Source of the DNA: Maridesulfovibrio sp.
GTDB lineage: Bacteria; Desulfobacterota; Desulfovibrionia; Desulfovibrionales; Desulfovibrionaceae
Reading direction: 5' to 3'
Length of the DNA stretch: 64,000 bases
NCBI RefSeq assembly: GCF_963667685.1
Contig: NZ_OY763930.1
Span: 2,153,501 to 2,217,500 of the forward strand
Shown: piece after piece, positions 50,189-52,853 of the stretch
Layout: every line of letters begins with the position of its first letter
Numbering within the stretch: the first letter of the stretch is position 1
Program-made: the position numbers and the translations under genes
The notes under the pieces: generated by a model
Told to the model about the DNA's origin: nothing
What the model saw: the letters and a program-made list of their open reading frames with translations, nothing else
Database searches by the model: none

Positions 50189-50911
50189 TTAGACGTTCTG
50201 GAATATAAGCATTAATCCCATGAAGACAAGCAGAGTCATAATGATTCTGCGGTAAAATTCCTCTGAAATACAGCAGGAGAGTTTGCTGCCGAGATACGTC
50301 CCTGCCAAAATGGGCAGAACTGAGGCCAGAACCAGCTTTAAAGCGTAAAAAGTTGTCAGTCCGCTAAGCAGATGGCCTGATGCTGCCAGACTACCGGAAA
50401 AGAGGAAGAAACTGACCAGTGTGGCCTTAATGGTATCTTTATTCCAGCCCTGAATTGATGCGTAGATAATGCTTGGCGGACCGCCCGCGCTGACTGCTGC
50501 GCCAATTGATCCGGTTAGGAAACCTGAGAAGTAGCCATATTTATTACTCAAGTGCAGTTTTATCGGCTTACCGAACAGTGAATAGGAGGCGAAAGCGGTA
50601 ATCAGACAACCTAGAAAAAGCCTGATATAATCACCGTTCAATTCCTTGAGCATCATGGTCCCGAAAATTGAACCGGGGATGCTGCCGATGATCAGGGGCA
50701 TGATTTTGGTGCGCTCAAGTTTTTTGCGCAGCGAGAACGTCATGTTCGTGTTAATAACCAGTCCGCAAAGGGTGCAGACCGGAACCGCCAGCTTAATGTC
50801 CATAACAAAAGCCAGTAGCGGCATAGCAAGCAGTGCCTGTCCGAATCCGGTCAAGCCTTGAATGAATCCGGCGAAAAGGAAAATAATGGGTACAAGCAGG
50901 AAAGGGGACAT
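50189..50911 (-). CDS. TauE/SafE family membrane permease
   Basis: 240 residues, mostly hydrophobic, with family traits: FLFAGFIQGLTGFGQALLAMPLL near the start, KLAVPVCTLCGLVINTNM, the SIPGSIFGTMML loop and LTGSIGAAVSAGGPPSIIYA in the second half. TauE/SafE proteins move organosulfonates, sulfite or other sulfur anions. AAAAAGGATAGCC precedes the ATG. It begins 19 bases after the stop of the putative selenoprotein gene and is probably cotranscribed with it, which hints at sulfur or selenium traffic. Confidence 0.9.
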   Translation of the reverse strand: MSPFLLVPIIFLFAGFIQGLTGFGQALLAMPLLAFVMDIKLAVPVCTLCGLVINTNMTFSLRKKLERTKIMPLIIGSIPGSIFGTMMLKELNGDYIRLFLGCLITAFASYSLFGKPIKLHLSNKYGYFSGFLTGSIGAAVSAGGPPSIIYASIQGWNKDTIKATLVSFFLFSGSLAASGHLLSGLTTFYALKLVLASVLPILAGTYLGSKLSCCISEEFYRRIIMTLLVFMGLMLIFQNV

Positions 50912-50930: not shown

Positions 50931-51155
50931 TTACAGTTTGCGCAGGGTCAGCAGGGTGAGGTTTTGCGGGATAGCTTCTTCAGCAATAATTTCTGACTTT
51001 CTGACCCGGCAGATAATATCAATATTAGAACGCTGGTCTTGGCGGATCTCCACCTGTAAGGTCATGCCTGATTCCAATTCCTGAAGGTGCGAACTCACCT
51101 CCTTGAACCCGGATCAGCAATCTTTCCAGCAGACGATAGCGTTGTTATTATTCAT
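50931..51155 (-). CDS. Putative small selenoprotein (in-frame UGA read as selenocysteine), TusA/SirA-like
   Basis: A 75-codon frame from ATG (51155) to TAA (50931) interrupted only by TGA at 51116-51114 (codon 14). The context is VCWKDC-U-SGFKEV. Right after the UGA a 7-bp hairpin with a 6-base loop (51102-51083) fits a bacterial SECIS. After the UGA the protein runs SGFKEVSSHLQELESGMTLQ and on to LTLLTLRKL, coding-like throughout. The helix after a Cys-rich loop, LESGMTLQVEI and the Cys further on (DIICRV) recall the TusA/SirA fold, where CPxP is the sulfur-carrying site. It precedes a TauE/SafE permease. The Shine-Dalgarno is poor and the promoter unclear. A decayed gene remains an alternative. 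Confidence 0.6.
51083..51116 (-). promoter_or_regulatory. UGA codon with SECIS-like hairpin
   Basis: UGA (51116-51114), an 11-base spacer, then GGAGGUG-AGUUCG-CACCUUC with seven pairs including one G-U. The loop begins 19 bases after the UGA, close to the placement in E. coli fdhF, and has GU in the loop. Confidence 0.55.
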
Positions 51156-51209: not shown

Positions 51210-52733
51210 TTATTTCTTGTTTTTCATGGCTTCCTGCAGCTTGTCGCCAAGCAGGCCGCCGAAACCGCCAGAGCCGGTAGATCCGCCGGAGCCACCGGAA
51301 GTGGTGGATTTAGGAGCGGATTTGCGGGGAGCAGATTTTTTGGGAGCGGTCTTGGTGTACTCTTTCCAGTCGCTGTCTCCGTCAGCTTTCTTTGCTTCGC
51401 CGGCAGTGAGAGTGACTTTGCGGTCTTTGGTATTGATCTCTTCAATGGAGATTTTTACCTTGTCACCTGGTTTGAGGGCTTCAAGTTCAGCCTGTTTACC
51501 GGAACGTGTGATGCGTGACATGGGCAGCAGACCGGTGATGCCGGGAACGAGGTTAATGAAGATGCCGAACTCGGCGCGATTCTCCACGGTCCCTTCTACT
51601 TCCTGACCGACTTTGAAGTTGTCTTCCATATCCATCCAGGGATCACCGGCAGCGTCTTTCATGGACAGGCTGATGCGGCGTTTAACCGGATCAATTTCCT
51701 TGATCATGACAGCAACTTCCTGACCGGGGGAGACTTCGTCTTCCGGCTTGTGAACGCGCTTGGTGTAGCTCATCTCGGATACGTGAACCAGACCTTCAAT
51801 GCCGGGGGCGATTTCAACGAAAGCACCGAAGTCGGCACAGCGGACAACTGTACCGCTGGTTTTGTCGCCGGCTTTGAACTGATCTCCGATTTCATCCCAG
51901 GGATCAGCCTGAAGCTGCTTGAGGGAAAGACCGATTTTGAGGCCTTTGCCGTCTTTGCGGGGCTCCATGGAAAGGATACGTACGGAAACTTCGTCTCCGG
52001 GCTGAACGATATCTTCAGGTTTGGCGGAACGGGACCAGCTCAGTTCGGAAACGTGAACCATTCCTTCTACACCGGGGGCAAGCTCTACAAATGCGCCGAA
52101 AGGCATCAGTTTGGTGACCTTACCTTCGAGAACAGCGTCGGGCTGTACATCCTGCATAAACTGTTCGCGGGCTTTTTCCTGTTCCTGTTCGAGAAGAACT
52201 CTTCTGGAAACAACGATGTTGCGACCGTTTTCTTCGAACTTGATGACCTGAAAATTGTGAGTGCTGCCAACGAAAGCTTCTGCGTCCTCAACAAAGGAAG
52301 CGTCGATCTGGCTTACCGGGCAGAATACTGTGCGGTGCATCATTTTAACTCTGAAGCCGCCTTTGCAGGTTTCTGCAACCTTGCCTTCAACCGGGACTTT
52401 GTTCTCGTATGCTTCGCGAAGCATATTGAGACCGCCCGCGCCGGACATGGCTTTGGAAAGGACGATTTCATTGTTGTTCATGGAGATCACGTAGAGTTCT
52501 ACAGTATCTCCGTCCTTAACGGTCAGTTCGCCTTCTTCGGTCAGTTCATCACGGTCAACAACCCCGTCCACTTTGGACCCGGTGTCGACAAAGACGGAAT
52601 CTTTGGTGATTGAAATGACGGTACCTTTGATCTGATCACCAACCTGGAGGTTGTCATTTGATTCAGACTGGAAGGCTTCAAACAGTTCGGCAAAGTTTTC
52701 TTCGCCATTGGTTTCCAAGTTTTTCTCGGACAT
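51210..52733 (-). CDS. rpsA: 30S ribosomal protein S1
   Basis: 507 residues from the ATG at 52733 (MSEKNLETNGEENF), preceded by AGGAGAAATAAG. Five S1 repeats can be traced: VGDQIKGTVISITKDSVFVD, VEGKVAETCKGGFRVKM, LEGKVTKLMPFGAFVELAPGVEGMVH, SGTVVRCADFGAFVEIAPG and VEGTVENRAEFGIFINLVPG. The C-terminus is low-complexity (Lys/Ser/Gly). E. coli S1 has six repeats. It brings mRNA to the small subunit. Confidence 0.95.
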   Translation of the reverse strand: MSEKNLETNGEENFAELFEAFQSESNDNLQVGDQIKGTVISITKDSVFVDTGSKVDGVVDRDELTEEGELTVKDGDTVELYVISMNNNEIVLSKAMSGAGGLNMLREAYENKVPVEGKVAETCKGGFRVKMMHRTVFCPVSQIDASFVEDAEAFVGSTHNFQVIKFEENGRNIVVSRRVLLEQEQEKAREQFMQDVQPDAVLEGKVTKLMPFGAFVELAPGVEGMVHVSELSWSRSAKPEDIVQPGDEVSVRILSMEPRKDGKGLKIGLSLKQLQADPWDEIGDQFKAGDKTSGTVVRCADFGAFVEIAPGIEGLVHVSEMSYTKRVHKPEDEVSPGQEVAVMIKEIDPVKRRISLSMKDAAGDPWMDMEDNFKVGQEVEGTVENRAEFGIFINLVPGITGLLPMSRITRSGKQAELEALKPGDKVKISIEEINTKDRKVTLTAGEAKKADGDSDWKEYTKTAPKKSAPRKSAPKSTTSGGSGGSTGSGGFGGLLGDKLQEAMKNKK

Positions 52734-52853
52734 GCTCTTATTTCTCCTGAAAGGGCAAATTGGTCCCGGCAAGGTAGGTTTTTTATAGCGCCATGGACAT
52801 TGGGAACCTAACGGGAAAAGACACAATTTTCAAACGATTTATTCATATATTTT

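Follow-up and report, generated by a model that had tools for sequence, protein, structure and literature searches.

The window analysed here, a 64,000-nucleotide stretch of a Maridesulfovibrio sp. genome, carries on its minus strand a small gene with an in-frame UGA, which probably encodes a protein containing selenocysteine (Sec). We put the probability that this is an intact gene for a Sec-decoded, TusA-fold protein at about 0.9. Comparison with homologous genes strongly supports decoding of the UGA as Sec by means of a selenocysteine insertion sequence (SECIS). The features that carry this finding are as follows.

51155..50931, minus strand: predicted small selenoprotein coding sequence (ATG 51155-51153, TAA 50933-50931, Sec at codon 14), from translation, homologues and the ratio of nonsynonymous to synonymous substitution rates (dN/dS)
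51116-51114, minus strand: in-frame UGA, putative Sec codon 14, with Cys13 immediately before it, from translation and the homologue column
51102-51083, minus strand: SECIS core hairpin, 7-bp stem 51102-51096 / 51089-51083 with loop AGUUCG at 51095-51090, from fold, covariation and geometry
51109-51076, minus strand: the same hairpin with a lower stem 51109-51105 / 51080-51076, from the fold

Translation of 51155..50931 (minus strand) yields MNNNNAIVCWKDC-U-SGFKEVSSHLQELESGMTLQVEIRQDQRSNIDIICRVRKSEIIAEEAIPQNLTLLTLRKL*, a 74-residue product followed by TAA; the only internal stop is the UGA, in the context CWKDC-U-SGF. An earlier sequence-only reading had proposed a coding-like 75-codon frame, broken only by UGA, between rpsA and a TauE/SafE gene. 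The 74 codons plus TAA, with a single internal TGA, agree with that proposal, as does the position between rpsA (minus strand, ending at 51210) and the TauE/SafE gene (minus strand, beginning at 50911). That reading named no strand; it is the minus strand that carries the frame. The product would be a single domain of 74 residues, unlike YedF (TIGR03527), which has a DsrE-like second domain. Gene callers taking UGA as a stop would presumably truncate or miss the gene.

Conservation of the UGA and of the protein

Family searches were run over genomes G000-G675 (about 676, unevenly drawn, so 83 carriers in 676 is not a prevalence). Profile searches were confined to one phylum with thresholds of E ≤ 0.001 or E ≤ 0.01, and Cys stood in for Sec in nearly all protein comparisons. 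The protein was found in 21 of 58 whole genomes of relatives, with exactly one internal TGA in each. A profile built from these 21 sequences matched 52 genomes among 297 from the class, the original 21 being counted, and a profile search of the phylum matched 20 of 395 genomes (the window's own included). Most counts below refer to a core set of 71 distinct genes. The wider profile A4 (E ≤ 0.01) matched 35 of the 395 phylum genomes; 32 of these had one TGA, and 12 of the 32 were new, which brought the total to 83 genomes.

All 83 genomes have the in-frame TGA directly after a Cys codon and in one column. Trp, Arg or another codon at this site, named by the sequence-only reading as evidence against its proposal, occurred in none of them. 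Disruption of the frame in close relatives had been named as well; of 17 genus genomes, 16 have it intact. In the 17th (G016), the gene is absent rather than decayed: rpsA and TauE are adjacent, and neither inspection by eye nor blastn revealed a gene remnant between them. Among the 71 genes, the residue before the UGA is always Cys (71/71), preceded by Asp in 69 and Glu in 2. The motif C-U-x-[G/A] is present in 71/71 and in 11 of the 12 later genes, the remaining one having Pro. Downstream of the UGA, dN/dS ranged from 0.05 to 0.24 in 13 chosen pairs, with dS above 1 in some. As judged from these alignments, the segment after the UGA is under purifying selection, and coding conservation continues past the UGA.

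No match without a TGA was obtained at E ≤ 0.001 in the searches of the relatives (58), the class (297) and the phylum (395). With A4 at E ≤ 0.01, three of the 35 phylum rows were free of a stop (E 0.005-0.0095); two look like noise and one is a TusA protein with CPIT. The latter, L184 (E 0.0095), has CPITYVKTK where CPxPV is expected and is weakly matched by the selenoprotein profile; it is possibly a stepping stone between TusA and the selenoprotein branch. A named genome collection was scanned for the Cys form CWxDCCxGF, a single pattern that has Cys in the Sec position and detects only Cys forms of the motif. It returned 49 stretches; tblastn gave one match, 16 residues long, located in what seems to be a different, longer protein. 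A single-protein scan of the genome collection, which reaches close relatives only and may omit records near the window's genome, yielded 64 pattern matches without a relative among them, even though five of the six patterns used lie outside the Sec site. In the genomes searched, we saw no Cys, Trp or other-codon gene of the C-U-x-[G/A] branch.

In the distant members L189, L191, L192, L194 and L195, all from family f84, the open frame continues upstream beyond the motif and includes hydrophobic, signal- or lipoprotein-like stretches, as seen by eye. Some forms of the selenoprotein in f84 may be exported.

The predicted SECIS hairpin

The earlier reading had described a hairpin of seven base pairs with a six-base loop, beginning 11 nt after the UGA. 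We found this structure, GGAGGUG-AGUUCG-CACCUUC, at that place, its loop starting 18 nt after the UGA. Folding of segments of 41, 54 and 62 nt gave −13.7 (z −2.2), −22.7 (z −3.6) and −23.3 kcal/mol (z −2.7), respectively. The lower stem is missing from the consensus fold of 21 sequences. For the 7-bp stem in the same 21 sequences, 91.2% of the cells were paired, as against 80.0% in shuffled alignments (0/500 as high), and stem covariation was 0.421 versus 0.202 (0/500 as high). Double changes occurred at four of the seven stem pairs, a number reached in 14 of 500 shuffles. Shifting the partner by one to three columns lowered every stem measure.

The bacterial SECIS model comprises a loop of 3-9 nt, a stem of 4-16 bp, a G in the first two loop positions, a location 16-37 nt after the UGA, and an energy ≤ −7.5 kcal/mol (PMC13188914). 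Its geometry, counted with the energy limit left out, was present in 70 of the 71 genes, with the loop at exactly 18 nt in 67. All 12 later genes have it (10 at 18 nt), giving 82/83. In L071, the lone exception, the hairpin is present with a mismatch near the loop. The mean hairpin energy was −8.2 kcal/mol, compared with −1.5 in synonymous recodings weighted by local G+C; the limit was left out of this comparison, too. An energy ≤ −7.5 kcal/mol was reached by the simple hairpin alone in 43/71 genes (the window's hairpin has −8.4) and by the 51 nt after the UGA in 71/71. The Rfam model SECIS_1 found no match in the window's genome and none in 14 control genomes, including E. coli, which makes this negative uninformative; an Rfam scan of the window also gave no match.

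Selenium machinery

The sequence-only reading had proposed looking for selB and selC in the genome, and both were found: selB at 390 bits (cut-off 242) and tRNA-Sec (selC) at 82.5 bits (cut-off 47). The genome also encodes FdhA in three full-length genes (L141-L143, at G000:C2:765099, C1:102802 and C2:829437), of which two contain an in-frame UGA and the third does not. In the phylum sample, selB exceeded its cut-off in 32/32 carriers, yet it did so in 353/395 of all genomes (hypergeometric 0.02); among the relatives, the corresponding numbers were 20/21 carriers and 54/58 genomes. Co-occurrence with selB is thus weakly informative for the selenoprotein assignment. Genome G029, a fragmented assembly, has the selenoprotein gene and tRNA-Sec, with no selB over the cut-off, for which we consider an assembly gap or a divergent SelB.

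TusA-like fold and sequence relationship

The TusA fold of the selenoprotein is predicted with high confidence. AlphaFold2 modeling of A4, with Cys for Sec, gave a predicted local distance difference test score of 90.8 and a predicted template modeling score of 0.76. The predicted elements are a two-residue strand, helix 13-26, strand 32-38, helix 39-51, and strands 54-62 and 66-73. We compared the model with 999 Protein Data Bank (PDB) chains by means of VIA-align, which amounts to a second look at Foldseek's own list. The top rows were YeeD (8k1r, 10.8; 8j4c, 10.4), a SirA-like protein (3hz7, 9.3) and TusA (3lvj, 9.0), followed by YhhP (1dcj, 8.9) and TusA (3lvk, 8.5), so that TusA-type proteins take six of the first seven rows. 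All these entries also match a TusA profile by sequence. Rank 6 is HP1264 (2lxr, 8.5), and rank 8 is Alba (7.9), less than 1 below the lowest TusA rows.

Sequence comparison gave weaker signals in the same direction. The Pfam TusA model matched the gene itself in G002 (E 1.7e-5) during a search for ordinary TusA genes. Against 64 members, PF01206 scored at best 27.9 bits, below its gathering cut-off of 28.6, and 8/64 were found at E ≤ 1; hhalign to TusA gave P values of 1.1e-4 and 5e-4. The resemblance to TusA/SirA suggested by the sequence-only reading is thus borne out by the predicted fold and by weak sequence matches. The link to TusA is weaker in sequence than in structure, and a TusA profile made from 17 local sequences had no significant match to the selenoprotein. 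We regard the protein as a TusA-fold relative outside PF01206 as defined, because it lacks CPxP and misses the cut-off.

The placement of the Cys-Sec pair depends on the alignment. In the Pfam match, the first aligned residue is Cys13, paired with profile position 10, which we count as the motif Cys; hhalign under relaxed settings and MAFFT place residue 14, not Cys13, at the TusA cysteine. The motif is one residue shorter than that of TusA; therefore, either Cys13 or Sec14 may occupy the place of the TusA cysteine.

A sequence search of the PDB gave no credible match. We rejected the hits of L060 (VopV, E 9.4e-12, a sum of short repeats; PNPase, E 0.019), L015 (E 0.77) and A4 (E 1.4), as well as weak Pfam matches below the cut-off (COP23, BRCT and others).

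Gene neighborhood

Neighboring genes and their starts were called with a simple open reading frame (ORF) caller. The features around the gene in the window are the following.

50911..50189, minus strand: TauE/SafE-family membrane transporter (PF01925, 117.5 bits), 19 nt downstream of the selenoprotein gene
51203-51169, minus strand: terminator-like hairpin 3' of rpsA, 15 pairs, stem end 13 nt before the ATG
52826..51210, minus strand: ribosomal protein S1, rpsA (PF00575, five stretches), upstream of the selenoprotein gene
53606-52854, minus strand: acyl-CoA dehydratase-type activase (TIGR00241), upstream of rpsA
54943-53660, minus strand: double-cubane-cluster reductase (NF040772, 496 bits), upstream of rpsA

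The gene order in the genus is rpsA, selenoprotein gene, TauE/SafE, FxsA; rpsA is upstream in 16/16 carriers, and TauE/SafE is next downstream in 15/16. The TauE/SafE gene is probably cotranscribed with the selenoprotein gene. As first noted, the ATG has a poor ribosome-binding site: there is no Shine-Dalgarno core, and the ATG lies 13 nt past the stem of the strong terminator-like hairpin. The gene is probably reached by read-through of this hairpin, and the layout may represent an attenuator or read-through arrangement. By eye, a similar layout precedes the ATG in several genus members, and a similar terminator-like sequence follows rpsA in G016, which has no selenoprotein gene. In each of the five genus loci that were read over a longer stretch, the reductase and activase pair is kept upstream of rpsA; genes with related names are listed in a table of selenium genes from another bacterium (PMC5322559).

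In other parts of the family, a nucleotide-sugar dehydrogenase gene, one representative of which was checked by profile, precedes the selenoprotein gene; this holds in 29 genomes, including one from another family, and the gap is 1-3 nt in 15. An mqnB-type (futalosine hydrolase) gene is next downstream in 18 of the 71 (17 in the window's family, one in another family of the order), and it overlaps the selenoprotein gene by 4 nt in nine genomes (L078, L080-L083, L086-L087, L040 and L101). In those nine, a polyprenyl synthase gene usually follows. We did not adopt a menaquinone role from this adjacency, which holds in only 18/71 genomes with one representative checked by profile.

A selenium-related context was found in two other families, f39 and f54, where a LysR gene lies directly upstream in 8/8 carriers. 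Four LysR proteins were tested, and they scored above the cut-off of NF040786 ('selenium metabolism-associated LysR family transcriptional regulator', LysR_Se); for the remaining four, the match to it is at 58-59% identity. One of the eight genomes, G581 (L106), has SelD (TIGR00476) and YedF (TIGR03527) on the same strand 2-3 kb downstream. There, LysR_Se, selenoprotein, selD and yedF span about 5 kb on one strand, with two opposite-strand ORFs between. LysR_Se was reported only in SelD-containing organisms by Lin et al. (PMC5322559). For those lineages, this context is independent evidence of a selenium connection, and it suggests selenium or sulfur handling over general metabolism.

Proposed mechanism and alternatives

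In the mechanism we propose, the mRNA would present the UGA at codon 14 with the SECIS loop 18 nt downstream, SelB with Sec-tRNA would decode the UGA as Sec, and translation would run on to the TAA. The product would be a 74-residue protein of the TusA fold, in which Cys13 and Sec14 form a vicinal pair where helix 1 begins, the site of the sulfur-carrying CPxP motif in TusA. This pair may cycle between the reduced and selenenylsulfide states, or it may hold a persulfide or selenosulfide, from which sulfur or selenium would then be handed to partners. We give such a chalcogen-transfer or redox carrier function slightly less than even odds.

Close behind comes plain thiol-disulfide or peroxide reduction by the same TusA-fold selenoprotein, with no sulfur or selenium carrier role. 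Redox cycling would be a fitting task for a vicinal Cys-Sec pair, a redox role is assumed for most uncharacterized selenoproteins (PMC13188914), and the 18/71 downstream mqnB-type genes are not sulfur genes. However, sulfur carriers have this same fold, with their motif where the Cys-Sec pair lies, and some lineages have selenium-handling neighbors. A more specific version of the carrier proposal is more tentative than either. It holds that the gene represents a Sec-only TusA-fold branch, with Cys-Sec for CPxP and no Cys counterparts within the branch, acting in selenium homeostasis as a dedicated selenium (or selenium/sulfur) carrier or as a redox switch, with LysR_Se as regulator and SelD and YedF as neighbors in some lineages. 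Such a branch would have escaped notice because the usual search strategies require a Cys homologue.

Ordinary suppression of the stop, for example by Trp or a near-cognate tRNA, in which the hairpin would stimulate read-through without being a SECIS, is highly unlikely. Comparative data alone do not reveal the inserted residue, but the position and loop of the hairpin fit the SECIS model, selB and tRNA-Sec are present in the organism, and no Trp codon occupies the site in any of the 83 homologues. Moreover, selenium genes adjoin the selenoprotein gene in eight genomes.

Still less probable is a true stop, by which the UGA would end a 13-codon leader peptide and the downstream frame would be translated from an internal start using the AAGGAGG of the hairpin. 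The sequence-only reading had named two caveats of this kind, and both are real in the window: AAGGAGGTGA, a perfect anti-Shine-Dalgarno match, does lie in the hairpin, and the Shine-Dalgarno sequence of the ATG itself is poor. The match in the hairpin does not extend to the family: AGGAGG occurs within 33 nt after the UGA in only 7/71 genes, in contrast to the SECIS-geometry hairpin in 70/71, and therefore the hairpin, not the Shine-Dalgarno match, is conserved. Because Cys at −1 and Asp/Glu at −2 are each conserved (71/71) upstream of the UGA, both halves look like one protein, and the predicted domain covers both.

The probability of a chance open frame or a decaying pseudogene, to which the internal stop and the absence of the gene from G016 might point, is negligible, since the conservation tests (one TGA in one column in 83 genomes, covariation of the hairpin, dN/dS indicating purifying selection, SECIS geometry) exclude a chance origin, and the fold is predicted confidently.

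Comparison with known systems

The sequence-only reading had assumed that Sec forms of TusA/SirA are known. This was not upheld: the available part of a 2026 catalogue of 119 families and subfamilies lists none (PMC13188914), and no word in its text begins with 'SirA' or 'TusA'. A literature search confined to the main texts of freely accessible papers gave no report of a TusA-like selenoprotein. Where SirA-like proteins and selenoproteins or selenocysteine occur together, the accessible texts concern YedF or other SirA-like proteins only. An early survey of stop codons in 191 genomes had put forward a single novel selenoprotein, a cytochrome (PMC1914089). Selenium depletion raises the levels of TusA and TusD transcripts in Methanococcus (PMC11097638), which is a TusA-selenium link elsewhere and has no bearing on the window's protein. 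Searching NCBIfam (June 2026) with 64 members at E ≤ 1 matched ten families, one member each, none of them a selenoprotein model; CopZ-like form 2 carries a cd number, so NCBIfam may not test for it.

Adjacent Cys-Sec residues are shared with the CU-motif selenoproteins KCU-star, SaoC, SaoL, HgcA, MbdU and CopZ-like form 2 (PMC13188914). TusA, SirA and YeeD (PF01206; 3lvj, 3lvk, 1dcj, 3hz7, 8k1r, 8j4c) have CPxP where the selenoprotein has C-Sec-x-[G/A]; the window's genome has a separate TusA-domain gene elsewhere, in a 216-aa open frame. YedF resembles the selenoprotein in its TusA-type domain and its link to selD, and in G581 it is encoded together with SelD near the selenoprotein gene; it differs in having a DsrE-like domain and CPxP (PMC5322559). 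Glycine reductase selenoprotein A, a separate family, was long held to be the sole selenoprotein without Cys homologues, and Cys forms have since been reported (PMC12013277). According to the deep-Sep paper, Cys homologues now seem to exist for every known selenoprotein, and families that lack them may be lost to the filter used there (PMC12013277). In the genomes searched, no Cys form was seen in the branch described here, which therefore stands against that statement. The family would fall in the gap left by Cys-pair filters, a blind spot of such tools.

The new family appears to be additional to the 119 prokaryotic selenoprotein families and subfamilies, and it would put Sec into the TusA fold. 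The route by which selenium reaches SelD is only partly understood (PMC13188914); a Sec-bearing TusA-like protein encoded beside LysR_Se, SelD and YedF would be a direct candidate for this step.
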